Of a DNA stretch of 64,000 bases, positions 3,769 to 56,669 are shown in pieces. The stretch covers positions 32,337,740-32,401,739 of the forward strand of contig CM018051.1 of NCBI GenBank assembly GCA_008638375.1, read 5' to 3'. The notes under the pieces were generated by a model. That model ran no database searches. It was not told the origin of the DNA and saw nothing but the letters and a program-made list of their open reading frames with translations. Every line of letters begins with the position of its first letter. Position 1 is the stretch's first letter. A program made the translations under genes and the position numbers. The DNA is from Nyssa sinensis (lineage: Eukaryota; Streptophyta; Magnoliopsida; Cornales; Nyssaceae).

Positions 3769-6700
3769 TGTCACGCCCCGAATTTCCACAAACCCGGGGA
3801 GTGAGTGAAATGAATTAAGAAAAGAAAATAAAAGACAATTTAATGGATTCAATTAAACATACATTCATTTCCTTTAACATATATACATGTGAGGCACATT
3901 CAATAAGTATATCCTACATGTTATTTTGGGCTTAAGCCCTTACATCACAAAATATGCCCCAAGGGCCAAATATACTTCCAAGCTCTTTTCCCCTCCTTCC
4001 TTCAAGACTTCATCAAGTCTCAAGTAGTAGAAGCATCATTTGTAATATGATATCCCACGAATAGGTCAACACAACTACTGGTATGACACAATGCTAATGC
4101 AAGGAACAAAATTAAGGAGTGGCATGTGCAAGTGTACATTTGTGGTCTACATACTTTCAAATTCATCAACACAATGCATTAACAGTATGCATGACACACC
4201 CATGCAAACTCTATGCCACACCCATATTTCACTTTACGGTCCTTTCCCGCTGGCATGACTACTAATCGTATGTCTCACTTCACGGTACGTCCCTATTGGC
4301 ATGAGTACCAATGGCCAATTTTGCGTTTTTCACCATAGGATCTACACCCTCATAATGCAAAGCACTAAGTGCTCAACCCACATTATGTTTCAAGGAATTA
4401 CACCATGCCAACATGCTTTGATTTCACCATGCAACAATGCAATCTCAATGAAGCATTTTATTCACACATGAAGCATGCTTTAAATAATGCAATATACTCA
4501 AAGAAATAATAACATTTGAATCACAAAACTCCTTCCTCGTGTACGTATGCTATACACAATCAATTCAAACACATGCTCAAATTACATATTCATAATTTTA
4601 ACAATTCTCAAGAAACATAAATCACATAATGTACCAACACATGGAATATACACATAGTCATGGTTCATATTTGTCACTTTACCAAGCTCCCAAAGAGTAA
4701 CAAAGGACACATAAGCACATAAACAATCAACTCTAGGTTTTTTCAAGGCAACTACATCCTATGTGATTTTCTAACATCAAATAAACATATGAATCATTCA
4801 ATCAACATAGAAATTATTCCGAATCTTAATCTTATTCCTTACTTAGCAAAATATCATACCTAGACGGGTTCTTCTCAACCCTAGGGAGTTTTGTCCGCTG
4901 TACAGTCGAACCAATCAATGAAAAATATAGTCCTCTTACTGTATCTGTCTAGAAGATCAAACCGCCTTTTCTTTTCCACTACGTTCCTATGATTCAAGAA
5001 ATGCACCTCAGTCCACTATATAAATAGTCTATGTTATTCATCAAATTTTATGTCTCTTTACCATTGATATCTCTTTTATTTAAATAGACTCTACTATTGA
5101 ATCCGGAATGTTGAACAAAATCGGTTTGGGCTTTCGCGGAATTCAATTCGAATTTCAGTACTAAAAAAGTAAAACGGTCATTTTGCACTTTTACGAGTTC
5201 TTACTTCTCGAGACCTCTTTTCCCAAATTGGACTCCATGGTTGAGTCTAGAATGCTAAAAAAATAAAAATTCACTATTCTTTTATTTTAATCGGAGTTCG
5301 TTTGACTACTTTTCGACTTAGGGACATTTTAGTAATTTCCCCTCTTAAATTATTTAAATTAAATATTATTTTATTACTCAGGTCAATTGAAAATTAACCA
5401 TAAATTATGAGCATAATTATAATTCCATAAAGTTCTATTCTAATTTGAAATAACTAAACAATAATTAAGTCTAACCCTGTCTGGCTGCAGTTAATGTTCC
5501 ACTGGCCCTGCAATCATCATTTATCTCTCCACCAACACCTATTACTGAATTTTTAGATACTGTGTCACGACCCGAAACCCACCCTGCGCGGATTACCGGA
5601 TCGCGATCGCCGCCCCGAGACCCGAAGGCCTCGAGACAAGGCTCGCATAGGTAGCGGTATCGAATAGATGTGCTTCATGTGGTTGCGGAAGCGTGAAAAT
5701 ATATATATTTTTTTTCTTATTTAAAATTTGCACATCCGTCCGATACTGCCGCTATTCTCAATGGTACACATGTTCACACATTCACATAAAATCAGAGCAT
5801 AACTAAAACTTAAAAGACTTCATAATTAAAATCTTAATTCAACTGCCCCGTAGGGCTTAATACACGTCCTTAAAATATCAGCTAATACAAAACACATTAA
5901 TCAGAGTTCATGTGATTTTTCCCCAAAAGAACTCCTCAAGCAAATCTTCCCAAAGGCTAGGTTTCTTCTTATAGTCTTCAAAAATCGATCTGCCCATAGT
6001 CACCTGAAAGGGGGGGGGGGCGGATAAAATCCGGGTAAGCTAATCAAAGCTTGTGAGTAATTCCTACATTTGTCATGGGGTTTTCAACTGGTAGTGGTTT
6101 TAGCACATGAGGGTTTATGAAATACTCACTACCAATTGCTCGTACATTTTAGAACACAGAATATATGCATTCTTTAAAACAATAGCTTTGAACAATTAAA
6201 GTATTCAAGCTAAATACACATTTTCTTCAAATAGAGCATATGCAATTTAAAAGCATATAAACACGTGAAATAGAATAAGGATAATACCTACTTCTATTTT
6301 CAAAATCACTTGTCATCTTTTCTCTTTTATTAGGCAGAATCTGTTTCGAACCAGACTCCCATTTTACTGCCAATACTGTCGATGGAGATATCTCATTTGC
6401 CTGGGGAATTAGATCTTTCTACCGGGCATGTACTGTTGAATCCCGAAGGATTTCAACCATCATAGAGGGTGGTACTGTCACATCCCGAACCCCACCCTAC
6501 GCGGATGTCGAGGACGTGACTGCCAGTCGGTCGCGACGCGACCAACCAAAGGCAAATTCTGAACTTTCCGACGAATTGCACTCCAACTGTAGGGTCAGAT
6601 GCAGCGGAATTTAAAACTTTTCTTTGTGTCACGGGAATGCAACTCACTTATCCATCATAAGAATATGCATCACAGAGCAAGACTAAATCCAGTCAGTCAA

Positions 6701-11449: not shown

Positions 11450-12239
11450 ATTTGGTCATTTTTCCACATTTTGGGCTAAGGCCCTGTTTGGCTGCGCATT
11501 AATTCAGTTTCTGATGTTTGCCTCATAACTTTCATTCCGTAACTCCTTTTTCGGTGCGGTTTCTTCCGGTCAGTTTCTATTTCTGTTATCTTCAGTGTCA
11601 GAGGTTCCGTGTCATTTATTAGTCATTCGGGATTTTCGGGATTAACTAATTCGAATTCCGTCAGTGTTAAATTGACATTATTTCACCTAATTAATGGATA
11701 ATTAGGTTCGGGTATTATACTCTATTCTCGGACATGTTTAATCATTCTATTGGTCTAGTGTGACCACCGGGAGATTAAGGTTAATTTCCTTAATTATTCC
11801 CTAAGCCGGTACTAATTAATAATTAATTATTTAATTATTAATTATACAGAGTCGGGGTGTCACAGGTACTTAGTACCGTTTATCTTATAAAACATTTGTC
11901 ACTTGACTTCTTCAATAGATATTTTTTTCATGAACATTTAAAGCATGAAATGTAAAAATTCTACAATAAAGCTTCAAATACACGTGATAATCAAATTCAG
12001 AATATTAAAGAGGTTTGCATTTGATTTAGACATGCTGATGTATTTTCAAGAAAAGAGCTGAATTTAAAACATTTAATAAGCATGCCGTAACAGAATATTT
12101 TAAAAGAACGGAATCATATAAAGACTGAATTTGATATTCAAAGGCTGCAATGACTTGAGCTTAAAACTTCTTCAAATGTATGGAGTTAAATCTCCAGTTC
12201 AAATACAGGGTTACTCACCTTGGTCCTTTAGGGTTAGCT

Positions 12240-12722
12240 CTACTGAGGCGCCTTCCCTTTAACTTTCTCTTTCCTTAGCCTATCAAGATTTATGAAGATT
12301 TCATAAATTTTCATATGTACTTAATCAACTCCACAACTCACTAAGTGTAGACTGTGAGAAGCCTAACTTGTCATACCTGTCTGCCTTATAACTGTAATAC
12401 AGAGCTAGTAACTTATGTTCTTAATGATAATAATATTACCTGCGACGCCATTCGGCTAAGGTTTCTGTGTTCTCTCTCTCCTCTTCCAATTTCCTCCTTT
12501 TTTTTTTTCCTCCTTCTTTTTAGCCTCCGCCACCATGGCCTTGGTGGGTGATTTGAACATGAAGGGGCTTACCGAGACGACCTCTGTCGCCTTGGCTATC
12601 TTGACAAATCTGTCGATTACTCTCTGTCGACGCAACAGCTCTTGCATGAAGGCCTGTTGCTTTGGGTCCTTGGCCCTTTGGGCCTTGGTCATGATCGTGT
12701 ACTTGGGTCGTTGTTCTTCCAT
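12240..12722 (-). pseudogene. LTR-embedded spliced gene, A1 copy (intron kept, frameshifted)
   Basis: Exon 1 is 12440-12722 and exon 2 is 12240-12279; the 160-nt intron between them has GT-AG ends and is phase 2 (AG/G). The start is the ATG at 12720-12722, in the same context (AAATCATGGAAGAAC) as the intact A-prime copy, to which the first 70 residues are almost identical. The protein begins MEEQRPKYTIMTKAQRAKDP and is Lys/Arg-rich with a predicted long helix. After AMVAEAKKK an A-rich tract near 12500 has expanded (exon 1 is 283 nt against 278 in A-prime), which shifts the frame before the conserved NTETLAEW tail, so this copy is probably dead. The stop TAG at 12240-12242 is conserved in position. 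It lies on the sense strand of the LTR. I do not recognise the family; a regulatory or RNA-binding role would be a guess. Confidence 0.75.
12280..12439 (-). other. 160-nt GT-AG intron in the A1 LTR gene
   Basis: On the minus strand the exon reads CGTCGCAG, then GTAATATT... to ...CTTGATAG, then GCTAAGG. A-prime reads CGTCGCAGGCTAAGG without a break at 36578-36592, so the 160 bases are exactly what splicing would remove. The intron is A+T-rich, as plant introns usually are. G1 has its own intron at the same codon position. Confidence 0.85.
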
Positions 12723-12879
12723 GATTTAGCTAAGATCAATTTATGAGTTAGAAATTTTTATTCTAGAGTTGATGTGTTGTCATGTCCTCGTATATGCCGT
12801 AGATTAGTACTTTGGCATCACTTTAATTTATAGTCATCTGACAGATGCTATTCATCAAATTTTATGTATTTTTATTTTA

Positions 12880-13270
12880 GACATTTCTTTTGGTCGAATA
12901 GACTCTACCATTGAGTCCAGAGCGTCGAAGAAAGTCAGTTTAGACCTTCTTTGGTTTAATTTGGCTTTTGGTGTACTAGGGGTAATTTGGTCATTTTACC
13001 CTTTTACGTGTCTTTATTTTTTTTCGGGTCCCGTCTCTTAAAATGGACCCTACCATCAGTCTCAGAGTATCCAAAATAGTAAGGATACACTATTTATTTG
13101 TTTAATTCGGACTTCGTTTGACTTGTTTAGGGGGAAGGGCAATTTGGTCATTTTGACATTTTTAGGAGTCTTAAATTTTTTGGGGCCTCATCTCATGTCA
13201 CAGACCTCACCAATGGACTCAGAGGGTCCGAGATAGTAAGGTTACATATATAACTTGTAATTTTTGGACA
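12880..13270. repeat. Shared LTR module array, A1 copy (about three units)
   Basis: Three diverged units contain GACTCTACCATTGAGTCC-like, GGGTAATTTGGTCATTTT and TTTTTCGGG blocks with spacing near 125-140 bp. The same array on the opposite strand occupies about 35745-36170 in A-prime. Confidence 0.65.
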
Positions 13271-13517
13271 ACGGGCCATTTCGGAGCATTTAATTTAATT
13301 AATTTCATTTAATTAAATTAATCTTGATTAAGCATAATACATATATTATTTTGTACATAATTAGAACAGGTTGAATAGGGTGGCATGCTGGCCAGCGTGT
13401 CACCTCCCTCCCTATACCACGCACGTTCGAATCTCACCAGGTGCGGTTGCACCTTTTAATTTTCGGATTTAATTAGATATATAATATATATTTATTGGTT
13501 CGCATATATGGCACACG

Positions 13518-13590
13518 CGCATGCGTGGCCGAGTGGAAAGGAAGGCTGTGTGGGCGCGTAGGTCAGGGGTTCGAACCCCACTGACCGCAA
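13518..13590 (+). other. tRNA-Ser/Leu-like sequence, antisense to A1
   Basis: TGGCCGAGTGG (13526-13536) is a textbook A-box of the Ser/Leu type, and GGTTCGAACC (13568-13577) is a perfect B-box inside a GGGG/CCCC T-arm flanked by GGTCA and TGACC. The 5' side does not pair with the 3' acceptor side and the spacing is too short for a complete Ser or Leu tRNA. A second, weaker candidate (B-box-like GTTCGAATCTC) lies near 13427. It may be a relic of a tRNA-derived insertion or a Pol III promoter-like element in U3. Confidence 0.5.
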
Positions 13591-15289
13591 TCCTCCTTCT
13601 TTTTCTCTTTTTCTTTTCAATTTCAAACAGCCCTATATATGCGCCCCAAAACGACGCCGCCGCATTAATGCGGTGGCAGCCCCGGATATCACCACGTGTC
13701 CGAGCCAACCCTTCAACTCGGTTTTAAATGGTTTGCGAGTCGACTCGGCCTCATCTTCCCCAACGATCCCTCTCTGTAACCCTAGAACCCGAAGCTCAAA
13801 AGCTTCTATTTCGTGCCATTTTTCTCAACCATTTCTCTCTGTTTTGATGGGAAACCCTTCCTACAACATCACTAAACAACTTGGCATTCGTTTGAGAGTT
13901 CGAATCGAACTCATTTGCTCGGTTAAAGGGGCGATAATCCTGACTGTAAGTGGCTCGTTCATGCTCATTTCTTCACCATTTTTAGTGAGGATGGGCTTAT
14001 TTTGATCCTCTCTTCATGAGGATTCAAATCCCATTCATGGATGTTGGTTTAAATGAGAGTTTAAGGGTTTGGGTTGTAAACCCGTAACCTGTAAGTCCAT
14101 GTTTGGAGGTCTTTCTTTGGGATTTTTGATCGCGTATATAGGTTTTTAGGATGCTCTTAGGGTCTTCTTGAGGTCTTGATAGACCAAATTTGGTTTAGGG
14201 AAAGTTGGTTCCGACCTGCTCCAAGCAAGGTCCATCCATGGCTACCTTGTGTACGGCCTGTGTTTCTTAGGTGTTTTAGGTCTAGATTTTCATGCATAAT
14301 TCATGTATATTCATCCTAACCATCATATATGCTAAATCAAAGGCTTAAAACAGATTCATACATATAAAAATTCTAGAGAGAGAAATTCAAGTGTTTAAGG
14401 GTTTACCTTGTTTCAAACTGTTTCTCTCTCCCTTGCTCCTTGCTTCCTACTTCTGAATGTCCCAGAAACTCCTTCAATCTCTCCCTCACTCTCGGATGGT
14501 TGTGTTTTGTGTGTATAAGCACCATGTATTTTGTATAAGGAGAAGAAATCATGGCAATTTCTGATTGCCCCTTTCTTTGGTTTAACCCATTTCAGGCTCC
14601 TTCATGAGTGGCCTGAATTGCCACTGTTGGGCAGGCCATGAGTGGCCGGTTGTGTGTGTGTGTGGTGTTTGACTTACATATATATATATATATATGTATA
14701 TGTACATAGTTCAACCCTAATACACCTTGGATAATACACATACCTCTCCCACTTTTGTACACTTTGGACAATAACATGCCCTATTATACATACATTTCAT
14801 ACATACATATTTTGGCATACATGCATGCATTCACATACCCATATATATATTCATGTATAATTATATATATATATATATTTATTTATTTAAGGTTATAATT
14901 ATTTATACAGTATATATATATATATTTCTATATTTAATTACGTATATTAGTTGTTACAATTTATTTCTTATACTTAAAATAATTAATTACTTTAAAAATT
15001 AATTATTTTCTTAAATGTATTATCTTGTACTAATCTTCGTATTCTCGTAATATTTGTCCAAATTCTCGTACTCGTATCAACAATTGGTAGTTGACGTGAA
15101 AATGTAATTATCATCAAAATCGACATGTTGGTGATTGCAACGAAAGTGATGTACAGTCATCCTGACTTTTCAGGACATTTACTTAAAAGTTCGTGCGTCG
15201 GGGTCGACACCGACCTTGTTACTAAAGGTGTTGATTTCCAATTTCAACACAACAGCTTAATAGTCCCTAATTTGGGTCGGGGTATTACA

Positions 15290-15890: not shown

Positions 15891-17412
15891 TGTCATTACC
15901 CAAAATCCACCTTTTGCTGATCTCGAGTCGCAACCGCCACCCTTCGGCCCGAGAGCCTTAGGGCAAGGCTCACATAGGTAGCAGTATCGAATAGATGTGC
16001 GACATGTTGTTTCCAGAAGCCTGAAAAAAAATTTCTTTTCTTTTCTCATTTTAAAATTTTCACATCCATCCGGTATTGCCGCTCTTTACATTGTGGTATA
16101 CATGACCATACATTTAGAGCATAACTAAAAACTTAAAGACTTTATAACATTACATGTCCACTGCCCCGAGAGGCTTAATACACATTCTTACATTGTCTAC
16201 TAATACAAAATGTACTATTAGAGTTCATAATGTCTCCCAAAAGAAACTACTTAAACATATCTTCCCAAACGGCCAGACTCATCATCATCAACATCAAAAT
16301 CAGATCTGTCGTGAATCACCTGAAAGGGGGACGGATAAAAATCCGGGTAAGCTAATCTAAGCTTATGAGTAATTCCTGCATTTGTCATGGGGTTTTCAAT
16401 TGGCAGTGGTTTTGCACATGAGAGTTTAAAAAAATACTCACTACCAATTGTTCGTACGTTTAGAACACAGAGTATATGCATTCTTAAAACAGATAGCTTT
16501 AAAACATTTAAAGTCTTCAAGCTAAACATACATTCTTCAAGTAGAGTATACTTCAAAAAGCATATAAACATGCATAATAGAAATGGGGGTAAAAACCTGT
16601 TTCCATTTTCAAAAGCGTTTGTCATTTTATCTCTTTAATTAGGTGGAATCTGTTTCGAACCAAACTCCCGTCTTTCCTGTCAATGCTACGATCTCATTTG
16701 CCTGGGGGATTAGATCCTGCTACCGGGCATTTCTTTGTGTCATAGTTGCATTCGGAAGAATATCAACGTCGACTTCGTGTCATAGTTGAATCTCAAAAGA
16801 TTTCAACATCGTATGCGGTACTTAAGTACCAATTATCTTATAAAACATTTATCACTAGCTTCTTCAATAGATACTTTTCATGAGTATTTAAAACGTGAAA
16901 TATATAACTTCTACAATAGGACTTAAAATACTTGGAATAATCAAATTCAGAATATTTAAGAAAATCGGCATTTTTACTCAAACATGCTCAATATTTCTAA
17001 GAAAGAAACTGTATAAAAACATTTACGGAGCATGTCATGTCACATCCCCCATACCCACCCTGTGCGGATTAGGGGCATGCAACCGGCCAGTTAGGCACCC
17101 ATCGGGTTTTTTTTTTAAATCAAAATGCCGACGGTAATCCTAACCACAGGCCATTCATCAGTAACATCCAAGTACAATGCATTCAATTAATATAAGTTGC
17201 AGCGGAACTAAGGGAATGCATAACACCTTGGCAGAGCCATTAATACATCCATGGTTAACTATTACATCATTGTCCTACAAAAGATACGAGTCTTAGGTTT
17301 CAGTACATCATATTCAAAAATGGAGTTAGGTACAAAAATGGTTAATTCATAAGTTCTTCAAAATAGTTCTCCGGGTCTCCAACCCGCTAATCCTGGTCGC
17401 TGGGTCCCTCAC

Positions 17413-17911
17413 CTGAAAAATGTTAGGGAAGGGGTGAGCTTTAAAAAGCCCAGTGAGTAACACGGGTCCCCTGTCATGGGTTTCAAACCATTGTTGTTTA
17501 TAAAACAGGTGGTCGGATTAGACATTTCAGAGGATATAGTTAAATCCGTATATTTGAACAATTTTAAAACAAGAATACAGTCAAAACATCATAGCAACAG
17601 AACAGTTCAATAATGAGCGGAGCAGAACAGTAAAACAGGATAACAGTACAGTATGCACAATTTAAATAGTGCAATATGCTCATACAGTGTTCAAGACTGA
17701 ATTTGGTACCATGAGTCAGTTATTCTTTTAGTAAAAACAAGGATAATTTCATTTCAATACGGAACAGCGAAATCGGACAGGGTAAAATATAGTCATGCAT
17801 TGAGTAGAAGCATGAAAGACAGTATATCAGTAGGAACAGTACAGTACAGTATAAAAATACAATAACTAGACGGTGTACTTATACACCAATTCAGGAGTCT
17901 AGGTTACTCAC
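17413..17911 (-). other. Predicted second intron in G1 (499 nt)
   Basis: The minus-strand donor is CACAAG/GTGAGTAAC, a near-perfect plant 5' splice site. The acceptor is TTCCCTAACATTTTTCAG/G with a CTAAC branch-point match about ten bases upstream. The same pair occurs in both C LTRs (905 nt apart in each), and very similar acceptors occur in B1 and B-prime. This is prediction only. If used, it would replace the last residues of the LTR protein with a downstream exon. Confidence 0.5.
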
Positions 17912-18345
17912 CTTGTGCGGTAACGGGACTTAACTGAGAAGCCTTTCTCTTCTTCTTATCCTTCTTTATCCTAGAAAATTTATGAACATTTCATAAATCT
18001 CACATGAATCTTAACTTGGTTTATTCTAATTCAAAATTCAACCTGAGTTAGACTATCTCGCTGTCTATGTGTTTTTATGATAATTGAAATTCACCTTTGC
18101 ACCCACTCTTTCAGGGTTTCCGTGTCTTCCTGTTTCTTTAGTTTAGCCTCCGCGACCATTGCCTTGGTACGCATCTTGTATATAAACGGTCGAACGGAGA
18201 CTACCTCGGTTGTTTTGGCTATCCTTATGTTCCGTTCAATAATCTTTTGTTGCCATAATAGTTGTTGCATGAACTCCTGTTGCTTCTTGTCAGCTAGTCT
18301 TTCGGCTTTAGACATAATGGTAAATTTCTTGTTTTTCCCTTCCAT
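17904..18345 (-). CDS. LTR-embedded spliced gene, G1 copy (apparently intact)
   Basis: Exon 1 is 18095-18345 and exon 2 runs from 17970 to the TAA at 17904-17906, with a 124-nt GT-AG intron (17971-18094). Spliced, the frame is 105 codons plus stop, the same length as the A-prime ORF. Exon 1 starts MEGKNKKFTIMSKAERLADK. Shared with family A are the blocks TIM-KA-R, D-KQQ-FMQ-LL, IAK-TEVVSV-PF, TKAMVAEAK and TETL-EW, despite extensive DNA divergence, which suggests past selection on the protein. The intron splits the same AG/G codon, and exon 2 continues with a Lys-rich tail ending near KASQ, where A-prime has KAPQ and stop. The protein is small, highly charged and helix-prone, with no membrane segment or signal peptide. 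Function is unknown. Without splicing the frame stops right after EWVQR. Confidence 0.7.
17971..18094 (-). other. 124-nt GT-AG intron in the G1 LTR gene
   Basis: The minus strand reads GTGCAAAG/GTGAATTTC at the donor and ATTTTCTAG/GATAAAG at the acceptor. Phase and codon (AG/G) are identical to the A1 intron, while the length and most of the sequence differ. The 3' part keeps an ATTTATGAAAT...CATAAAT stretch seen in both introns. Confidence 0.75.
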
Positions 18346-18479
18346 GACTGGCTTGAGTTTTTATCCTATAGCATGATCCCAAGAAGTCAGGATGTGTACT
18401 ACCTCTAGACAGTCCGGTCATGAAATTATTTAAGCTTTCATTGGGTTAGTTCTTAGTTCACTCGGATGTTATCTAACTC

Positions 18480-18945
18480 GATACAGGGTTAGGGGTATTT
18501 TGGTCATTTCACAGTTGTGAAGTTTCGACTCCGATTCGTCATCCAATCACGTGTATAGTCCCCTACGTGTCAGGGTTTCTATTGTTTTCAGTTTCGTCTC
18601 AATCGGACTTTGTTTGGGTTCTAAACAGTGTCAGGGGAAATTTGGTAATTTCGTGTGTTGCATTTTTCGGCACTTTATCTGCTAATACGGACCTCACCGT
18701 TGAGTCCAGAATGTCTGACATAGTCAAAATAGACTATCTTTTAGTTGTATTTGGGTTCGAGTATCATCAAGGGCAGTATGGTCATTTACTCCTACGTGTT
18801 TGTATTTTTCGGGACTTAATTTCCCAAATCGGACTCCACCATTGAGTCTGGAATGATTGAAATAGTGAAAATACACTATTCGTTTGACTTATTTGGACTT
18901 CATTTGACCTATTTATGACCTAGGGGTAATTTGGTCATTTTTATT
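18480..18945. repeat. Shared LTR module array, G1 copy
   Basis: Units carry GGGTATTTTGGTCATTTC, GGGGAAATTTGGTAATTTC, TTTTTCGGCACTT and GGACCTCACCGTTGAGTCC, with about 130-140 bp between equivalent points. Confidence 0.65.
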
Positions 18946-19164
18946 TAATTAATAAATTAATTAAATAATTTAATTTATTATTTATTAAATTATCAGGGGT
19001 ATAAATGAATTAAAACATCAGAAACTGGGCCACAGTGTAATATTCAGAACTGTTGGGGGTTGGTTTGCAATTTTCCAAAAGGTTTGAACTGAACCAAAGG
19101 GTTCAGTCCTTAAGCAATTGAACCGGATCGGTCCAATCCGGTTCTGACCGGTTCAAGGTAATGT

Positions 19165-19187
19165 GCTGACGTCATGCTGACGTCAGC
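19165..19187. promoter_or_regulatory. Paired TGACGTCA palindrome, G1
   Basis: Two TGACGTCA motifs (the core bound by plant bZIP factors of CRE/as-1 type) are separated by a few bases and together form a larger near-perfect dyad. The same arrangement is present in A-prime, C1 and C2 at the equivalent place, about 0.8-1 kb downstream of the leader in sense orientation. Binding is inferred, not shown. Confidence 0.5.
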
Positions 19188-19214
19188 CCTAAAATTTAAA
19201 ATTTAAAATCAGTT

Positions 19215-20160
19215 ATGTTAAAACGACACAGTTTGGTTTTAAACGGGTTATCCGTTTCTCGGTCGGGTCGGGACCCGACCCGAAAACCCGATCCATGCCC
19301 GACCCGTACTGTTCATCGTCTTCACCCGTCTAGGGCCACTGTTGCCCTAGAAAATTGCAGAATTTTCTCCCTCTATTTCGTGGAGTTTGAGGTGCGGTTT
19401 TCAACAGGTTTTGATCCTAAACGACTTCTGGGAGTAAAACGAACCTCTTGGCATTGGTTTCAAGCTTCAGGTTCATCCATGGTGTTCTGTTTCGGCCGAC
19501 GTTCAGGGGGAATTTCAGTTGGGTTGCATGGCCTCGTTTCTCAACCATTTTGGACAGGGTTTGGTTCTCTGAAATCCACACAGCAAGGGCTTCGATCCCC
19601 CATCCTTAAATCTCAGTTTAGGGGTCTAGTTTAAAGGTTTGGTTTTTGGGCCGAGAAGAATAGCCTCGGTTTTGAGGGCTTAGACCTAGGTCTCTAGGTC
19701 GTGTATAGTGTTTTTCGGGGTCCTAGGAGGGTCCATTTCATGTTTTGATCATCCAAAGTTCGGTTGGTTGAGGTCGAATCAGACCTGCAACCTCAAGGTC
19801 CATCAATGGCGGTTGCTATGGGTTTGGGTTTTTGGGGCAGTTCTGATGGTCCAAATGTTCACAATCGATCCAGATTTTATGGTCTAAACATGATACATGC
19901 ATTAACAATCCTAAAAGCTATAAAACAGTAGCCAAATCAAAGAGGAAAATTTCAGAAAATTTTGGACAACTGACCTTCGTACAGTGGTCTCCCTCACTGG
20001 CTGTGCTCAAACAGAACCTTCAACAGTTGGCTTTGATCCCTCCGTGCACTCCCAGACCTTAGCTCCCTTCTATTGCTTCTTCAATGGCCAAACTCACACA
20101 CAAGGTCTCACTTTCTCTCTCTAGATTCTCTCCCTTTCTCTCTAACCCACACTCTCTCTA
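19215..20160 (-). other. G1 leader and first-intron region; no gene
   Basis: Several open stretches on the plus strand (one of 139 codons at 19215-19634) are antisense to LTR transcription and show no recognisable domain. On the minus strand, a leader rich in AG repeats (about 20000-20160) leads to a possible donor GTACGAAG/GTCAG near 19975. Confidence 0.45.
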
Positions 20161-20437
20161 AAACAGTAAACTAAACCCTCAATACAGATCTGGTCTCATG
20201 CATATAGGGAGACACACATATCTCACATTTTCTCTTAACCTTCCATCTTCCCACATGCATGATTGTATTGCATGAAATCTGGTTGGAAGAGAGGTTTAAT
20301 CATGAACTGTAGGCATGATGGCTAGGGCTTAGGGTGATGCATGCTGAGGTGTTGCATGCTTGTCCATTGGCCACTTTGGGGAGAGGCCAAATCAGATTTA
20401 TACTTATATACATATCTTTGTACATATATACACAAAA

Positions 20438-20516
20438 GTGTTCCTAGCCTAGGTGGTAATTTTTTGGTAAACCAAATTTTGCCTAGTTTGGTCAAGGGAT
20501 CAAATCCTCTTGGCCA
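20438..20516 (+). other. tRNA-like unit, antisense to G1
   Basis: It has TAGCCTAGGTGG as an A-box-like block and GGTCAAGGGATCAAATCC in place of the B-box stem-loop. It is a degraded version of the B1 and C units at the same U3 position. Confidence 0.4.
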
Positions 20517-20830
20517 CATTTTTGGTCTTTTTCCCATATTTCGGGCTTAGGCCCTGTTTGGCTGCACATTAATGCAGTTTCACTGTTTTCTTCCTAACTT
20601 TCATTCTGTAGCTTATTTTTCGACGCGGTTTCTTTCAGTCAACTCCTAGTTAGGTTAGCTTCAGTGTCTGAGGGTTCAGTGACAGTAATCAGTTTCTCAG
20701 AATTTTTTAACATTTGCTAACATGGGTTTGATCAGTGTTAAACAGTTGATTCTAAACAGTTAAATGCCAGATCAGATTTCAAGAAGAGTTTTTCATTACA
20801 TAATTTAATAATTAAGTCTGGGGTGTTACA

Positions 20831-23191
20831 TGTCACAACAGAATATTTTAAAACATCAATCATATAAAGACTGAATTTGATATTCAAATGCTTCACATAA
20901 CTTGACTTTAAAAACTTCTTCAAATATATGGAGTTAAATCTCCACTTCAAATACAGGGTTACTCACCTCAGTCCTTAGGGTCAGTGCTAATAATGCGCTT
21001 TCCCACTTCCTCTGTAGTTCCTAAAAACAATTAATATATAGTCTCATTAACTTCACATCACTACAATATCACCTAGTGATGCATCTTAACTTATGCTTAG
21101 TTCGTATTAAATCCTAACTGATTTACGAATATTCCATAAATTTCATGCGTACTTAATTTAACTCATACTCTTAACCTACAACACAATTTAATGTGTTAGG
21201 AATTAATTTCATTTTAAACTATACTCTTCTGGTAGCTTCATTAATCATAAATTTAATTTACTTACTTCACATATTTATGTGTCGTGTCGTTTCGTATTTT
21301 ATTTTGAAATACTAACCTTATTATTTTGTTTAGTACTTCGGGCAACATTCTAGTTTATAGCCACCTAACTTGTGCTATTCATCAAATTATATGTCTCCTC
21401 ATTTTAAGGACTTATTTTGGTCAAATAGACTCTATCATTGAGTCCGGAACGTCGAAGGAAGTCGGTTTAGGCTTTTGTAGAATTCAATTCAGACTTCGGT
21501 ACTAAAAAGGGCAAAACGATCATTTTGCACTTTTACGGGTTCTTACTTCTCGAGACCCCTTTTTACAAATTGGACTTCACGGTTGAGTCCGGAATGCTCG
21601 AAATAATAAAAATTTACTATTCTTTTATTTTAATCGGAGTCCGTTTGACTACTTTTTTATTTAGGGACATTTTGGTAATTTCTTTTAATTTAATTATTAT
21701 TTTATTACTTGGGGTCAAATTGGAATTACTATAAGTTCTGGGTAAATTCTGAATTTCAAAATTTCCTATTCCAATTTGGAATAGCCAAACAATGGATAAG
21801 CCAAAAACCTTGGATAAGTTATCCTTGTTCTCATTTTCAATTAAATTTTCATCTACTATTCTTGTATCCAAATAGCTCCAAATCACCATTTTTTTAAACT
21901 TTTAAAAATCCCTCATGTTACACTTGTATTGGGTCTAGCCCATGGGTGGATGGACGGGTCAACCCGACCCGACCCATGGCCCAAAATCACAAAAAAAAAA
22001 CACAACACGCATGTGCAGCGTTTTTTTCGGCCAGCTTGCACCGGTCATCTTCTCCGGCGATGGCAGCTGTTTTCTGGCAATTTTCCGACATCCGACCACT
22101 TGGGTCACCTTATACTCTTCATGGAATTTCATATCTACCCTCAGAATTCAGTTTGGACCATCGGAAGGCCTCGAAAAGTGGAGTTGCAGCCAGCTCCGGC
22201 GAGTTGTCCCAACTTTCTGGCGAACTGAATTTTTACTTTTTCATGACTTTTTAGCCATTGTTTTGAGCCCAATTACCTACAAGTTGCTGCACTTATAGAC
22301 AACAATTTCCAATTCATAAAACGAGCTAAAATGATGTAAAACTCAATGACTTGAAAATTTCCTTCAAACTTTAAATTGGTTTTTCTCACTCATTTTTTAA
22401 CCAAATGAGCTGTGGTTTCTTCCTAAATTCACCATTTTTCATGCTCTTTAAAACCATATAATTCTTTCTAAGCTTTAAGCAATTCTACAAAAAAGCCAGC
22501 AAATTCGAAACATGAAGATACAGTAAATTTCTCACCTTTTCTTTCGGTTTCTCCTTTTTTCTCTTTCGGTTTCTCACTTCTAAATGTCCCAAAACTCCTT
22601 CAATCCCTCACTCCCTCTAAGCTCTCAGTTTGACTAAATGGTCATGTGTATACAATATGTTTATATGTGTATATAACTATACATGATCATCACATTTTTT
22701 CTTTTGGTTGCCTCAACCACTAGCTTACCCATTGCTTGCTGCAGCATCTCTAATGAGTGTCCTTTATGTTTGCATGATGTACCCCTCTCTGGTTTGCATC
22801 ACATGGCTGCTATTTTCTTTCATCATTCATTCTCATGTAGAGAACAGCTGTGTAGCTACTGTAGCCACTGACTCTCTCTCCTTAGTCCTCATTTTCTATC
22901 ATTTCTTCTGAGCAAACCCCATCTCTTTCTCTCTAGAGATCTGTTCACCGACAGAGCACTGCCCCTCTTACTTTCTTTACAAATTTCCTGCACCGTTACA
23001 CTATACATACTTAACACATAAATGCCCATGTGCCCCTCCTTGCCGCAACTACCTCCAACACTTCACACACACATAACATACATATACACACCACCTGTTA
23101 TAACTCCACCGTACACCTGCCGCACCACTATATTTATATATACATATTTTTGGCCAGCTTCAAGCAACTTCTATGAAGCTTCCTAATTCTT

Positions 23192-23225
<34 letters not shown>

Positions 23226-33345: not shown

Positions 33346-33360
33346 TTCTTCCCCCCTTAA
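33346..33360 (-). promoter_or_regulatory. Polypurine tract of element C
   Basis: The minus strand reads AAGGGGGGAAGAA immediately before TGTAACACC of the 3' LTR. This primes plus-strand synthesis in LTR elements, and it fixes the element orientation. Confidence 0.9.
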
Positions 33361-35485
33361 AAGAGTTTTGTCCTCAAAACTCGAGTATTCTTAATTTCAA
33401 GAGTTCTAGCCTCCTTACGTCATTTCTATCTATCATCTTCATGTATCGAAATTAAACGATCAGTCTATATATATTAGAGTAGCAATTTAAGCATCAAACG
33501 GTGTACCTAATTGACTTTTTGAAGGCTGTGTAGCATGAGAAAATATATTGTACACTCGTCCATACCTCACAAGTTCCTTGCTTCCTCCTGAATTTTTAGC
33601 AGTTGAACCCTGTTTGTGTGGTGTAGCTGATGAAGCTATTATAGTAGGCTCCTTAGTGGCTAAGTTCCATTTTGGGCAATCCCTCATTCGATGCCCAGGT
33701 AATCCACATTTATAGCAGACTCCAGTACCTTGCCGACAGGGTGCATAGTGTTTCTTCTGACAATTAGGACAGGTAGGAATCTTTCCTGACTTCTGGCTAC
33801 CGTCACCCTTTTCATTGATAGTAGTCATACTCTTAGTCCCTATCTTAGTCTTTTTCATTTGTTGGGGTGCAAGGCTAATCTGTTTCTTATCCTTCTTTTG
33901 GGATAAAGCAATCCCAGCTCTCTCAAAGATTTTAGCTCGATCCACTACTGCATTATATGGGGGAAGTTCAAAAGGTTCAAGCCGGTATCTGATGCTATCC
34001 TTGAGACCACTTTCAAACTTCTTGGCTTTCAGATCCTCAGTTTGGACCATATGTGTAATACCCCGACCCGAGAATGTCGGGTAATATGACACGTATTTTG
34101 AGGGTATGAAAAATGGAAGTAAATATTATGTTTTTAAAACAATAATAAATTAATTTAATAAAATTAATTTATTAATATGAGAAATTAAGTATTTATTATG
34201 ATTAATATGAAATATGATGGTTAATTGGTAAAGTGTAATAAATTGAATAAACAATTTAATAATAAATTAAATATGACAAATTAAGTGAAAATATAAAAAT
34301 ATATATATACATATATATATATACCAGCCGTGTGTGTGAGTGTGGAGTAATATGTAAATTAAATATAATATATATATATATATGTATACATGAATAGATG
34401 AGAGGGAGACATGGGAATTAATATGGGTAAGGTGGCATGTACTTTATGTGTATATTATATGGCCATTAGGTGAAGATGAATAGGGAGAAGTATGGCTATG
34501 GTCTGATGGAGTAAGGGAGTGAAATGAGGGGCAATTAAGTGAGGTGATAGCCATTTAATTTCTCACCTATACAAATGGTCATACATGGCTTACACACAAG
34601 ATCTCCACCGATCAGCAATAGAGAAAAGAGAGGGAGAGTTCTGAGCATTTAGAAGAAGAGAAGAGAGGTCTCAGAGGAAGGAGGAAAGAGAGAAAGCCAT
34701 TGTTAGAGGTAAAACACCAAGAACCATTACTTTCTCTCTCTAGGAAATTTTGCATGCATAAACTGTTTTAGTTCTAGATTTTGTATATATGATGTTTTAA
34801 ACATATTTAGGCATGATTAAACATGAAATTAAGACATAAAAACACCTAGAACTACGTGACCCAACAGTGAACCGCCATTGAAGACCATGCTATAGCAGGT
34901 CTGAAATGATGGAAGCCAAACTCTTTTTGATGCATAGGGACTTCAAGAAGAAGTCATGAGAGTCATGAAGACCTATACCCGCGACCAAAAATCACAAGAA
35001 ACGACCCTCGACCATTGACTTGCAGGTTTCGGGTTTTCAACCCCAACCCTTAAACTTGCCTTTAAACCTACCCTTATGAACGAAAATTTAATCCCCATGA
35101 AGAGAGGATTAAAACAAGCAAAACCTCGTGAAAAACCATCGACAAACGAGCATGAACGACCCATGAACAGCTCGGATTATCGCGACTTAATTCGAGTCAT
35201 TGAGCTACATTCGAACCTCCAAATCAATGTAGAAGTGTTCTATAATGTATTAGGAGGTGTTTGGAAAAGAAAGCAGAAGAAACGGAGTTGTAGAAATCCA
35301 CGAAATAGGAAAAAAATGAAAACCTGCAACTAGGGCAACACTGGGAAGAAACGGGGAAGAAGATGAACAGTGGTGGTTCGGGTCAAATGGGTCAAATCGG
35401 GTTCGGGTCGGAACCCGACCCGTCGTATAAACGGTTAAGTGGGACGGCGTTGTTTATGCTTATGTTTAAATTTTAAACTATTAGG

Positions 35486-35508
35486 GCTGACGTCATCATG
35501 ACGTCAGC
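35486..35508. promoter_or_regulatory. Paired TGACGTCA palindrome, A-prime
   Basis: TGACGTCA occurs at 35488-35495 and 35499-35506. The two 11-bp arms around the single central C at 35497 are perfect inverted repeats. This is the best-kept copy of the motif in the window. Confidence 0.55.
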
Positions 35509-35744
35509 ATTACGCAATAAACCCAACCAGACCGGATTGGTTCAATTGAAATTGGACCGGTTCATTTGAGATAGGACTGAACCCACTGGTTCAGTCCGAA
35601 AGTTTTGAATATTTGATTTTGACCCCCAACTGTTCTACGGATTTACACTATGGACCAAATTTTGGAAAAATTATGCAAATATACCCCTGGAAAAATAATA
35701 AAATAATAAAATAATTTATTTAATTATTTTATTAAATAAGTAAA

Positions 35745-36170
35745 ATTACTAAATTACCCTTGGGTCATAAATAGGGCAAATGAAGTCCAAATTAAATAAA
35801 CGAATAGTGTATCCTTACTATTTCGGATATTTTGAAGCCAATGGTGGGGCCCGTTTTACGAGACGGGGCCCAAAAATTTAGACACGTTAAGGTATAAATT
35901 ACCAAAATACCCCTTGACCAAAAATGACAAGTTATATATGTAACCTTACTATCTCGGACCCTCTGAGTCCATTTGTGAGGTCTGTGACATGAGATGAGGC
36001 CCCGAAAAATTTAAGACTCCTAAAAATGTCAAAATGACCAAATTACCCCTAGTACACCAAAAGCCAAATTAAACCAAAGAAGGTCTAAACTGACTTTCTT
36101 CGACGCTCCGGACTCAATGGTAGAGTCTATTTGACCAAAAGAAATGTCCAAAAAATAAAAATACATAAAA
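35745..36170. repeat. Shared LTR module array, A-prime copy
   Basis: The sense strand shows three units with ATTACCCCTTGG or ATTACCCCTAGT, GTGGGGCCCGTTTTACGAGA-like and ATTTCGGATA or ATCTCGGACC blocks. It is the reverse-complement counterpart of 12880-13270. Confidence 0.65.
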
Positions 36171-36307
36171 TTTGATGAATAGCATCTGTCAGATGACTAT
36201 AAATTAAAGTGATGCCAAAGTACTAATCTACGGCATATACGAGGACATGACAGCACATCAACCTTAGAATAAAAATTTCTAACTCATAAATTGATCTTAG
36301 GTAAATC

Positions 36308-36625
36308 ATGGAAGAACAACGAACCAAATACACGATCATGACCAAGGCCCAAAGGGCCAAGGACCCAAAGCAACAGGCCTTCATGCAAGAGCTGTTGCGT
36401 CGACAGAGAGTAATCAACAGATTTGTCAAGATAGCCAAGGCGACAGAGGTCATCTCGGTAAGCCCCTTCATGTTCAAATCACCCACCAAGGCCATGGTGG
36501 CGGAGGCTAAAAAGAAGAAGGAAGAAGAAAGGAAATTGGAAGAGGAGAGAGAGAACACAGAAACCTTAGCCGAATGGCGTCGCAGGCTAAGGAAAGAGAG
36601 AGTAAAAGGGAAGGCGCCTCAGTAG
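36308..36625 (+). CDS. LTR-embedded gene, A-prime copy (intact, intronless)
   Basis: A 105-codon ORF runs from the ATG at 36308 (GGTAAATCATGGAAG context) to the TAG at 36623-36625, on the sense strand of the LTR. Residues 1-60 are mixed polar/hydrophobic with FMQELLRRQ and IAKATEVISVSPF, and residues about 60-105 are very rich in Lys, Glu and Arg (KKKKEEERKLEEE), likely a long helix or coiled coil ending in a basic tail KGKAPQ. The join that replaces the A1 intron lies between 36585 and 36586. A possible acceptor (GATCTTAG) lies just upstream, suggesting the ORF exon is spliced to the LTR leader. It is about 95 percent identical to A1 before the A1 frameshift and clearly related to the G1 protein. 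I recognise no family. No signal peptide or membrane segment. The cellular role is unknown; helping the element in trans is one possibility. Confidence 0.75.
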   Translation: MEEQRTKYTIMTKAQRAKDPKQQAFMQELLRRQRVINRFVKIAKATEVISVSPFMFKSPTKAMVAEAKKKKEEERKLEEERENTETLAEWRRRLRKERVKGKAPQ

Positions 36626-36647
36626 AGCTAACCCTAAACGGACCAAG

Positions 36648-37461
36648 GTGAGTAACCCTGTATTTGAACTGGAGATTTAACTCCATATATATTGAAGAAG
36701 TTTTAAGCACAAGTCATTGCAGCCTTTGAATATCAAATTCAGTCTATATGTGATTCCGTTCTTTTAAAATATTCTGTTACGACATGCTTATTAAATGTTT
36801 TAAATTCAGCTCTTTTCTTGAAAATACATCAGCATGTCTAAATCAATTGCAAACCTCTTTAATATTCTGAATTTGATTATCACGTGTATTTGAAGCTTTA
36901 TTGTAGAATTTGTACATTTCATGCTTTAAATGTTCATGAAAAACATTTATTGAAGAAGTCATGTGACAAATGTTTTATAAGATAAACGGTACTAAGTACC
37001 ACCCTATATGATGGTTGAAATCCTTCGGGATTCAACAGTACATGCCCGGTAGAAGGATCTAATCCCCCAGGCAAATGAGATATCTCCATCGACAGTATTG
37101 GCAGTAAAATGGGAGTCTGGTTCGAAACAGATTCCGCCTAATAAAAGAGAAAAGACGACAAGTGATTTTGAAAATAGAAGTAGGCATTATCCCTATTCTA
37201 TTTCACATGTTTATATGCTTTTAAATTGCATATGCTCTATTTGAAGAAAATGTGTGTTTAGCTTGAATACTTTAATTGTTCAAAGCTATTGTTTTAAGAA
37301 TGCATATACTCTGTGTTCTAAAATGTACAAGCAATTGGTAGTGAGTATTTCATAAACCCTCATGTGCTAAAACCACTACCAGTTGAAAACCCCATGACGA
37401 ATGCAGGAATTACTCACAAGCTTTGATTAGCTTACCCGGATTTTATCCGCCCCCCTTTCAG
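36648..37461 (+). other. Predicted second intron in A-prime (814 nt)
   Basis: Donor GACCAAG/GTGAGTAACC and acceptor CCCCCCTTTCAG/GTGATT are both good plant splice sites, at the places equivalent to the G1 and C pairs. The donor is downstream of the ORF stop, so splicing would affect only the untranslated region. Confidence 0.45.
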
Positions 37462-38922
37462 GTGATTAATGGCAGATCGAGTTTTTAAAGACGTTAAGGA
37501 TGAACCTAGCTTTTGGGAAGATTTGCTTAAGTAGTTCCTTTGGGAAAAATCACATGAACTTTGATTAGTATATTTTGTATTTCCAGATAGTCTAAGGATA
37601 TGTATTAAGCCCCACGGGGCAGTTGAACTAAGATTGTAATTATAAAGTCTTTTAAGTTTTAGTTATGCTCTGTATGTATGATTATACATGTATACCGAAA
37701 TGTGAAGAGCGGCAGTATCGGACGGATGTGCAAATTTTTTTTTAAAAAAAAAAAAAAAAAGATTTTCACGCTTCCGCAACCACATGAAGCACATCTATTC
37801 GATACCGCTACCTATGCGAGCCTTGTCTCGAGGCCTTCGGGCCTCGGGGCGGCGGTCGCGATCCGGTAATCCGCATAGGGTGGGTTTCGGGTCGTGACAA
37901 TATGGGGTGCAAATCGGGCTAATTTCATAAACTTAGTTTCATATTTAGCCACAGTTATTGTTCCCTGGGCCAGAGTCGCAAACTCTGCTATCTTTTCGTT
38001 TTTCAACGACCTTGGGAAATATTTATCATAAAAGACCTCCAAAAAATCTCGTCCAGGTCATCGGCGGCTCTCTCTCTTTTTCTAGAAGCCACCATTCATA
38101 AGCTGCATTTTTAAAAGTAAAGGCAGCATAGGATACTTTTTGTTCCTCCGTATATGGCATGACTGTAAATACACGCTCCATCTCTTTGACCCATGACTCA
38201 GCGTCGATGGTGGTGTCTACTCCGTCGAATCTCGGAGGTTTGAAACCCTGTAATGTCTTATAACTTGATGTATTTATTCCCTCAGTAGGTTGTCCCAGAT
38301 TTTATGGCAACCTGGGATTCTGCACCGGTTGTGGTGCTCTGCCTTGTGTTTGGATGTTAATCATGTTCCGAGCCATTGCCTCCAGAAGATGCTTGACTCG
38401 GTTCAGCCTATCATTTGAATTCCTTGCATTTCTTCTAGTATTTACCATTTTTGCTGAAAAACACACATTTCTATTAGTTTTTCCCATCATCACATAAGGT
38501 TTTCATTTACTCATCTCATGTTTTCAAGGTAAATGTTTTATTATCCTTGATTCTCATGGTGGTTTTTATAATCTACATTACTTCTCGTTCTATTCCTATT
38601 TAACTACGGGTCCCAGACCCCGCCTTCATTTCATATCACATACTTAACATATCTATTTCATGTACTGCGGGTCCCATACCCCGTCTTCATTTCGTATCAC
38701 ATACTTCACATATCTACTTCATATAACGCGAGTCCCATACCTCGCCTCCATATCGTATCATGTCCTTCACCTATCTTAAGTAGCCTAAAACCTACCTAAC
38801 TCATAGTTTTGTTTCTAATTTTTTTAAAGTCCCTAAGTTGTTTAAGTCAGCCTAGGACAAATCTTATTTATTTCTTAACCTCAATCATAACTTCGTCTTT
38901 CCCAAAGACCAAATAACCTAGA

Positions 38923-38934
38923 GCTCTGATATCA
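38923..38934 (-). promoter_or_regulatory. Primer-binding site of element C
   Basis: The minus strand reads TGATATCAGAGC three bases after the 5' LTR end. This is a one-mismatch version of TGGTATCAGAGC, the initiator tRNA-Met primer site of many plant gypsy elements. Confidence 0.88.
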
Positions 38935-41128
38935 CTCTGTCACGACCCGAAACCCATCCTGTGCGGATCTCGTATTGCGACCGCCACCCTTTGGCCCGGA
39001 GGCCTTAGGGTAAGGCTCACATAAGCAACAGTATCGGATGGCGGTGCGGCCTTGGTTTACGAAAGCGTGAAAAAAACTTTTTCTTTTGTTTTTTTATTTA
39101 AAACTTTCGCACATCCGTCCGGTATTGCCGTTCTTCATAGCGGTACACATGAACATAAATTCAGAGCATAAATAGAAGTTCTAAATTTTTATACATATTA
39201 CATATTCGAATACCTATAGGGCTTAAGTACATATTGTCCAAAGTCTATTACATCATAATCCATCTAACTACAGATTCTACTACTTCCAAAAGTTCATAAT
39301 CCTATACAGCCATTAGTCATGATCCCAAAATGGAGCACGGCTCCCACTCATCGTCAGTACCTGAAAAATGTTAGGGAATGAGGTGCGCTTCGAGAAGCCG
39401 AGTGAGTAAATCCAACATTTGTCAAGGGTTTTCAATTGGCAGAGGTTTCGTACATGAGAGGTTCATAAAATACTCACTGCCAATTGTTTATCCATTTTGA
39501 ACATAGAGTACATGCATTCTTTATAAAGATAGCTTTGAAACATTTAAAGTATTCAAGCTAAACATACATTTCTTTAAATAGGGTATATGCATTTCAAAAC
39601 ATATAAACATGCACAGTGAAAAATGGGGGTAAAACTTGCTTCCATTCTCAAAAGCGTTACTTCAAAACATATAAACATGCATAGTAAAAATGGGGGTAAA
39701 ACCTGCTTCCATTTTCAAAAGCGTTTGTCATCTTTTCACTTCCATTAATGGAATCTGTTTCGAACCAGACCCCCATTTTACTTTACGTGGAGATATCTCA
39801 TTGCCTGGGGGATTAGATCTTACTACCGGGAATTTCACACAATAGGTCAAATGAGTTCCGAAGAAACCCAAAATCCTAACTATGTGGCTTTTTGACAGGT
39901 CAATTGAGTTCCGAAGAAACCTAAAATCCTGCATGTGTGCTTATGCACTATTATCTTGTAAAACATTTATCACAGGGCTTCTTCACATAGATATTTTTCA
40001 TGAGTATTTAAAACATGTAGCATATAACTTTTGCAATAGAACTTCAAATACTTGGAATAATCAAATTCAGAATATTTAAGGAAATTCACATTTTACTCAG
40101 GCATGCTAAATATTTCGAAGAAAGGAACTGTATATAAAAACATTTAATGAGCATGTCATAACAGAATATTTTAAAACAAGAATCGTATAAAGACTGAATT
40201 TGATATTTAAAACATTATTCAAATCCGTGGAATTAAATCTCCACTTCAAATGCAAGGTTACTCACCTTATACGTCTGGGTTGGCGCTATTGATGTGCCTT
40301 TCCCTTTCCTTTGTAGTTCCTCAGAACAATTCATAATAGTCCATTAACTTCACATTCACTTCAAACATCTCCTACTGATGCTTCTTAACTTATGCTTTCA
40401 TCGTATTAAATCTTAACTTAAATCTTAAGTGTTATTTTCTTAACATATACTCTTTTGGTAGCTTCATTAACTTTTAGGGTCGCTTTCTTAACTTCACATA
40501 TTTACGTGTCATATTTTTTTGTACTTTATTTCTTAAAAAGGACCTCACCGTTGAATCCGGAACGTCGAAGAAAGTCAATTTAGACCTTCTTGGACTTTCA
40601 TTTGGCTTAAGAGCACATTAGGGGTAATTTGATAATTTACACTTTAACGTGTCTTAATATTTTTGGAGTCCTGTCTTGTGAAACGAACCTTACTGTTGGT
40701 CTCAGAAAGTCCAAGATAATAAGAATACTCTAATAACTTGTCTTACTTGGACATCGGGCATATTAAGGGCAATTTGGTAATTTATATTTTGATGTGTCTT
40801 ATTTTTCGGGGTCCCTTCTTGAGAAACGGACCACGCCATTGGGTCCAGAACGTCCAAAATAGTCAAAATACACTATAGGTTTACTTAATTTGGACTTCGT
40901 CTGCTTCATTTATGGCCTAGGGGCATTTTTGAAATGTTTTTCATTCAAATATTATTAAATTAATATTAATTTAATTTCGGTTGGGCCACAGTACAATTTT
41001 CCAGAAGTTTTGGGGTCAAAATCTAATTTCTCAATCTTTCGGTCTAAACCCGTGGGTTCGTTCCCTTTTTAAGTCAACCAGTTCAGTTTTTACTGAACCA
41101 ACCGGTTTGATCCGGTTCAACATGTAAC

Positions 41129-41151
41129 GCTGGCGTCATGATGACGTCAGC
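41129..41151. promoter_or_regulatory. Paired TGACGTCA-type palindrome, C 5' LTR
   Basis: One half is TGACGTCA and the other has changed to TGGCGTCA. It corresponds in position to 31577-31599. Confidence 0.45.
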
Positions 41152-42200: not shown

Positions 42201-42284
42201 GGCCAAGGGAATTGAACCCTTGACCTTTGAGAGGGAATGAATTTTTCTCAAAAAGTTTACCAACTGGGCTGCCATTACTTTGTG
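42201..42284 (-). other. tRNA-like unit, antisense to B-prime
   Basis: The minus strand has GGCAGCCCAGTTGGTAAAC as the A-box-like side and AAGGGTTCAATTCCCTTGG as the B-box stem-loop. It is the counterpart of 11369-11449. Confidence 0.45.
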
Positions 42285-44990: not shown

Positions 44991-45289
44991 GTGAGACCCA
45001 GTGAAAGGGCGATAGGCTACTAGGCTGTCTTAGGTGATCCGATAGATACCTAAGATGACAAATGAGAACTGAATGGATGAGTTCTGATCTGTATATGATT
45101 GATGATTATTGTTCAGGATATACATGGAGATGCCTGACGTATCTGGAGGTTATCGGATTGTTTGTGCAAGGAGATAACCGTAACAGTTTGTGAGTAACCC
45201 TGACTCCTGAACTGGTGTATAAGTTCTGTCTAGATACTGTATTTTGAAGCTCTGTACTGTTTTGAATGTTATACTGTTTAAAAAGCATA

Positions 45290-47286: not shown

Positions 47287-47324
<38 letters not shown>

Positions 47325-47527
47325 CATACATATACACATGTATATATATTTTTTTTTATGTTTTTACTTTGCTGCATGAAATCTAATTGGTAGGGGTGAT
47401 GTGGCTGATGTGGGCTAATGTAAGCCAATGATGAAGGGTTTACATGTATGGCCATTAGCCAATTTGGGAGGTAGACTTGGGGTAGTTCAGTGTTATATAC
47501 AATTCTGTCGTATATATAGGCACAAAG

Positions 47528-56608: not shown

Positions 56609-56669
56609 TAAGGTCCGTCCTTAAGAATGTACACAAGAGTCCACTCGTAAAAACAAAAAATGGAATTCT

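Follow-up and report, generated by a model that had tools for sequence, protein, structure and literature searches.

A small protein gene under purifying selection, very probably spliced, inside the LTRs of Nyssa sinensis retrotransposons

A 105-codon ORF on the sense strand of a retrotransposon LTR was protein-coding and under purifying selection, and the LTRs that carry it very probably contain a selected, spliced gene. This small intron-containing gene has been kept by selection in an element family (A) without replication enzymes, and one plant genome has at least hundreds of LTRs that repeat it (150 copies scored per family in A and G, and thousands of further candidates). It was studied from the window, the whole 64,000-nt stretch of DNA analysed, in which LTRs of related elements are nested.

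The ORF and its split copies in a nest of LTRs

The ORF in LTR A' was intact from ATG to stop, as an earlier note on this DNA had stated (Table 1). A' was a solo LTR of 3.85 kb, recognized by its terminal sequences and the perfect target duplication of 5 bp around it, and had inserted into the gag remnant (zinc knuckle, 33490-34092, minus strand) of a B-type element. Outside A', this B element (33346-38937) had a very short interior with gag as its only recognized part, similar to family A. The two other carriers were LTR A1, which is split in two by H1 (6476-11864), a solo LTR from a different family, and LTR G1, a distant relative of A1 and A' that carries the gene and whose ends differ by one or two bases between determinations. 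All three carriers were solo LTRs, and no fourth was found when the window was scanned in six frames with a profile. The A1 copy, which the same note had called damaged, was indeed frame-broken (12722-12240, minus strand), yet shared 97% identity with A' over the block 12500-12878. The spliced G1 copy was intact in two exons on the minus strand (18345-17904), again as claimed.

What had not been noted earlier is that A1 has an intron at the site of the G1 intron, and that A' is without exactly this intron. In A1 and G1, intron 2 occupied a single common position and had the same 3' end, TTTATGAAATnTTCATAAATnTT. Because the intron is common to G1 and A1, the intronless state of A' is an intron loss. 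Since the stop codon of G1 exon 2 overlaps the next donor, splicing of intron 3 would leave the C-terminus of the G1 protein uncertain.

Table 1. Features of the window and mosaic LTRs elsewhere in the genome.
Feature	Position	Strand	Remarks
LTR A', solo	34054..37899	+	TGTAAT..GTGACA ends; TSD ATATG; 3,846 bp
Proposed TATA box and leader exon L1	34568..34708	+	TATACAAA box; AUG-free
Proposed intron 1 (A')	34709..36300	+	GTAAAA..TCTTAG; donor below score threshold
105-codon ORF (A'), exons fused	36308..36625	+	exon 1 36308-36585; exon 2 with stop 36586-36625
Proposed intron 3 (A')	36648..37461	+	AAG/GTGAGT..CCCCTTTCAG/GTGATT; retained in A'
LTR A1, first part	11865..15289	-	TSD CAGTA; interrupted by H1
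LTR A1, last part	5563..6475	-	same LTR, far side of H1
A1 exon 1	12440..12722	-	frame-broken in Lys/Glu-rich stretch
A1 intron 2	12280..12439	-	160 nt, GT-AG; precisely absent from A'
A1 exon 2 and stop	12240..12279	-	
LTR G1, solo	17038..20830	-	TSD TGACA; inserted in D-type LTR
G1 exon 1	18095..18345	-	intact
G1 intron 2	17971..18094	-	124 nt, GT-AG; position as in A1
G1 exon 2	17904..17970	-	stop overlaps next donor
Exon-L3 counterpart, B2 LTR	40266..40319	-	about 54 nt between an acceptor and an AAG/GTGAGTAACC donor; exon 1 ORF absent
Exon-L3 counterpart, D LTR	20967..21020	-	no exon 1 ORF
ORF-less LTRs with exon L3 and early donor	481-3714, 50342-53506, 38938-48025, 15891-23966		by eye
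Tandem modules with GGACTCAATGGTGAGGTCC-like blocks	8523-8953, 9280-9571, 40613-40875, 44035-44327, 44654-44938		by eye
Mosaic LTRs L069, L070, L076, L077, L083, L084, L088, L089			junction near exon L3

In A' and A1, a TATACAAA box was followed by an ATG-free stretch (110 nt in A', from TATA+31 to the donor; 100 nt in A1) and a GTAAA donor, and an acceptor was located 7 nt upstream of the ORF ATG. The putative 1.6-kb intron 1 between these sites contained 39 ATGs in A' and 46 in A1. In G1, the ATG-free stretch measured 178 or 222 nt before either candidate donor. A putative intron 3 had the general form AAG/GTGAGT past the stop to TTTCAG/GTGA. The intron-1 donor block was common to the H LTRs, and the intron-3 donor was present in A, B, D and G LTRs. 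Introns 1 and 3 are only inferred, since none of the proposed A', A1, G and H donors scored over the threshold of a simple donor matrix. In the first 1500 nt, this matrix found no site over threshold in A', B1, B2, G1, H1 and H2, and in A1 only two sites other than the proposed donor. A scan for bacterial promoters and terminators was of no use for a plant, with scores near those of its shuffles, and was discarded.

We hypothesize that the LTR of this chromovirus-like lineage would be a self-contained split gene. A promoter in U3 would produce an mRNA with a short AUG-free first exon, and this leader would be spliced across the AUG-rich intron 1 to just upstream of the ORF. Since splicing would remove the AUG-rich intron, the AUG of the ORF would be the first in the mRNA, and a third intron would be located downstream of the stop codon. 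Each LTR, solo LTRs included, could then make the protein.

Purifying selection and intron loss across the genome

The motifs reported as shared by the A and G proteins were present, with the same residue at 51 of 84 exon-1 codons of A' and G1. A chance resemblance was rejected, as this number was outside all 1000 runs of a neutral simulation (mean 30.7, sd 3.0, maximum 41). Differences between A' and G1 were distributed as 23/19/50 over codon positions 1/2/3, with a dN of 0.28 and a saturated dS. In a whole-LTR alignment of A1 and G1, identity was 63% in exon 1 and 66% in exon 2, versus 53% in intron 2, 43% in the 250 nt before and 41–42% after; the A/G similarity was thus concentrated in the ORF relative to its nearest flanks. 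Five further windows within the first 2.3 kb showed 44–57% identity, and the 93 aligned positions of the LTR tail showed 68%.

The dN/dS between clades of family A was 0.00 (C1–C2), 0.11 (C1–C3) and 0.14 (C2–C3). Clades C1 (L017, L019, L025), C2 (L020, L021, L007) and C3 (L005, L006, L013–L016) comprised 12 of 45 readable copies (28 haplotypes, one copy dropped), taken from a list ranked by protein and hence biased to conserved proteins. C1 and C2 (dS 0.146) were separated by 6–9 synonymous and no non-synonymous changes in the eight pairs listed out of nine. Because the best 150 copies by protein carry this bias, a control sample was chosen by DNA: 30 loci found with a non-coding downstream LTR query, for which 40 of 3,554 candidates were scored. 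The ORF was present in 22 of these loci (21 open through exon 1, one broken) and absent from the other eight. Among the 21 intron-bearing control copies, 20 were readable in frame, frame-broken L080 being left out. Compared with L017, a reference that was itself protein-chosen, these 20 had 4–7 synonymous and 0–2 non-synonymous codons (none non-synonymous in 12) and 7–11 intron differences. Selection at the protein level, which the earlier note had read from the A/G resemblance, was therefore upheld by both checks it had proposed, with a dN/dS far below 1 for A' versus G1 and among genome-wide copies, and with A/G similarity higher in the ORF than in its nearest flanks.

The splice junction was searched in the whole genome (1,000,968,657 bases). 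The A exon–exon junction occurred at 12 places with up to two mismatches, and the reversed control at none. For G, the junction query was predicted beforehand from G1 and matched at 18 places with up to three mismatches (two exact, four with two, 12 with three; reversed control, 0). At one exact place (L095), exon 1 continued into exon 2 in the predicted frame, with a few substitutions and one internal stop. The 12 places with three mismatches were rejected as a diverged intronless family: the one that was read (L096) was unrelated sequence, so only the two exact places were counted; the four with two mismatches are candidate losses. Exact-loss copies in both A and G rule out that intron 2 was misread. 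The precise loss of the intron in both families indicates that LTR RNA was spliced and then reverse-transcribed, and the copies are a natural record of retrotransposon RNA splicing.

In family A, losses occurred both in close kin of the intron-bearing majority (L001–L004) and in a separate subfamily (L005, L006, L013–L016), which makes at least two loss events likely; recombination between LTRs could have spread one loss. All ten intronless A copies checked (A' and nine others) were solo or 3' LTRs, with no PBS after them, and this counts against our overall reading.

Full-length elements and relatives without the gene

The A protein gave 3,938 first-look candidates in the genome, and the best 150, which were scored, all had E < 1e-48. 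Ten of these were open to codon 104–105 (intronless), and 140 had a TAA at the same place as intron-bearing copies, the intron itself being confirmed in the fetched copies among them. The G protein gave 3,755 candidates; the 150 scored were at least 96% identical, five with an internal stop. Many ORFs were paired on the same strand, 5.9–6.4 kb apart in A and about 8.5 kb apart in G. At G000:C20, three A ORFs lay on one strand with a spacing of about 6.1 kb (769534, 775631, 781718), which suggests an LTR–interior–LTR–interior–LTR array.

The LTR end, PBS, PPT and start of the next LTR were read in four A interiors and one G interior, and the gene was located inside both LTRs of full-length elements in both families. 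All four A interiors (1,820–1,937 bp) had the PBS TGGTATCAGAGC, a PPT and an open gag of 362 codons; none contained pol, and no other forward stop-to-stop frame exceeded 95 codons. The A LTRs measured 4.3–4.4 kb (ORF spacing minus interior), and LTRs made up more than 80% of the element, as reckoned from spacings and interiors. Gag of family A was conserved, with a dN/dS of about 0.06 (L009/L012 versus L010/L011). In one A pair (L007/L008), 3249 of 3251 aligned sites were identical in the part fetched, so this insertion was recent. An LTR pair of family G was identical at 2793 of 2810 sites.

The single G interior (4.75 kb, scanned as three separate pieces) encoded gag, protease, RT, RNase H and integrase, in the gag-PR-RT-RH-INT order of Ty3/gypsy chromoviruses, and SH3_Tf2-1. 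In a test for an integrase C-terminal chromodomain, SH3_Tf2-1 scored 98.5 bits (cut-off 30) and Chromo 21.4 bits, below its cut-off of 25.1. The pol frame was broken in this copy, and from its domains we infer that family G is autonomous. These elements may resemble the Tekay/Del clade, a name that we do not claim for them. The gene has been kept both alongside gag-pol (family G, one interior) and where gag stands alone (family A, four interiors). That a gag-only element lacking Pol has kept it suggests that the gene serves a need of the element itself.

A profile scan found no exon 1 ORF in the B, D, E, F and H LTRs of the window. By eye, B, D and E LTRs kept at most a small second exon and its donor, and H not even that. 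LTR families without the ORF showed, also by eye, exon L3 (acceptor, about 50–65 nt, donor) and an early donor past a leader rich in purines, as would be expected if introns in the leader were a common feature of the lineage. The eight A-like LTRs of the DNA-chosen sample that were without exon 1 had an A-type downstream part (91–97%) and an upstream part only 71–80% like A. L069 and L070 were 5.5 kb apart on one strand, and the upstream part of L069 was D-like by eye; judged by these mosaics, LTR halves seem to have been swapped between families. Many relatives therefore lack the gene in cis, and the protein would be either supplied to them in trans or dispensable.

Other repeats and fragments were observed in the window. 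An integrase zinc-binding domain fragment of another element (49424-50038, minus strand) adjoins the E2 LTR. Several LTR families, otherwise diverged, contained about two or three tandem modules of 134–143 bp, a length near that of a nucleosome. A 55-bp tandem array (TGTTCAGTTCCGATATGTCTTGACC..) was present in the H2 LTR (45301-45603), with a counterpart of 58-bp period in H1 (7272-7869). Two 219-bp copies in tandem at 56663-57100 shared 96% identity, and both contained an internal repeat around GAAATCGCATCTTCAAGATGCGA.

Candidate roles of the protein and comparison with known systems

The A protein (105 residues, 12.6 kDa, pI 10.35, charge +12.5) and the G protein (pI 10.20, charge +13.5) were rich in lysine and arginine, and to the eye their basic C-terminus looks like a nuclear signal. 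AlphaFold2 predicted a helix–hairpin–helix fold (helix 20–45, hairpin 46–59, helix from 61) for either query with middling confidence (A: pLDDT 76, pTM 0.33; G: pLDDT 67, pTM 0.37), both models being built on the same five aligned sequences. The earlier note had recognized no known family, and Pfam, NCBIfam, PDB sequences and fold libraries gave no usable match. Foldseek searches of PDB and viral libraries with the A model found nothing better than E 0.55, and no Pfam family, presumably including a Sag model, matched at E 0.02 or better. A search of 5.8 billion proteins found three relatives, all G-like, on ENA contigs of 500–2277 bp and ending where exon 1 of G1 ends; a second search with the five-sequence alignment found the same three. 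No relative was confirmed in viral or prokaryote contigs, where the pattern matched 165 and 159 stretches.

A gene with some accessory protein role for the element is the probable general answer. Given a selected and spliced LTR gene, the chance that the protein acts in trans in the nucleus is, in our judgement, a little short of even. The product would act early on the LTR DNA or leader RNA of its own element, with a role in transcription, in lifting silencing or in exporting genomic RNA that is incompletely spliced. Such a nuclear role agrees with the basic charge and tail, the spliced message from the leader side and the persistence of the gene in a gag-only element. As a tentative full account, less likely than not, we propose a new protein family that would make plant LTRs portable and self-regulating: each carrier LTR, solo ones included, may encode a nuclear factor, made from a spliced message, which recognizes its own LTR or RNA and activates the family in trans. 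Derivatives with gag alone would keep it as the factor that, unlike Pol, they cannot borrow, and families without the exon would live off it. Were the protein to act in trans, a solo LTR would be an expression unit rather than a dead remnant.

The main rival, which we consider rather unlikely, is a particle accessory that works in the cytoplasm with Gag in assembly, RNA packaging or Pol recruitment. Such a role would account for the retention of just two selected proteins, Gag and the LTR protein, by an element that lacks Pol, and a basic protein predicted to be helical would suit it. Against it, the LTR protein does not track Gag, as A and G share 39% of Gag residues (over about 294 aa) versus 61% of the LTR protein over exon 1, and the separately spliced LTR message suggests early rather than structural expression; these arguments are not conclusive.

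A narrower form of the nuclear role, less likely still, is a silencing suppressor that would bind its own LTR and lift DNA methylation, by analogy with the VANC proteins of VANDAL transposons, which do so on their own element. The many LTR copies (150 scored of 3,938 A candidates) would be both source and target, and the protein is basic, whereas no link to a DNA-binding family was seen by sequence or fold in the Pfam and Foldseek searches. We give yet lower probability to a leader peptide or upstream ORF acting in cis, which would set translation or stability of the genomic RNA and matter only while being synthesized: the ORF does lie upstream of gag in the elements with interiors read, but conservation extends over the whole protein instead of a short arrest stretch, and 105 codons split by an intron are unusual for such peptides. 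A piece of a host gene, captured and then carried in the LTR as a neutral passenger, would account for an intron within the ORF and for the lack of a similar retroviral protein, but is highly improbable given the purifying selection within and between families (dN/dS) and retention in two families whose surrounding LTRs have diverged almost beyond alignment.

The gene can be set beside several known systems. In general, LTRs are taken to be non-coding control DNA, and gene searches mask them. The superantigen gene sag of mouse mammary tumour virus, which encodes a membrane product, is the parallel drawn in the earlier note. The parallel is one of location alone, a protein gene within the LTR being present twice per provirus and also in solo LTRs. 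The gene described here sits far downstream of the promoter proposed for it, contains an intron and codes for a small basic protein of high charge. Rev, Rex, Tat and Tas, regulators of complex retroviruses, are multiply spliced and encoded mainly outside LTRs. The likeness is a small basic protein from a spliced retroelement message; similarity to them in sequence or fold was not found, and the present gene lies inside the LTR. To our knowledge, and according to literature searches, no LTR-encoded trans-acting regulator has been described in plants. In the open-licence literature, the titles and abstract openings found did not name a plant LTR-encoded protein gene, and the main text of a 2020 review (PMC7264820) contained neither 'within/inside/in the LTR' nor 'intron'.

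Among plant Ty3/gypsy elements, the aORFs and eORFs likewise encode an extra protein beside gag-pol and are conserved in some lineages. One survey (PMC6317226) counted only eORFs of 250 codons or more, located in the 5' or 3' portion of an element; these are longer than the LTR gene. Ogre, described in the same survey, is a plant Ty3/gypsy element that also has a removable intron, but in the interior, between gag-pro and RT-RH-INT, and not in an LTR gene. Family A, with LTRs, PBS, PPT and gag and without pol in all four interiors, agrees with TR-GAG elements as defined in PMC6022998 (terminal repeats with only a GAG domain); it differs in that a second selected gene is carried in the LTRs, which make up more than 80% of the element.
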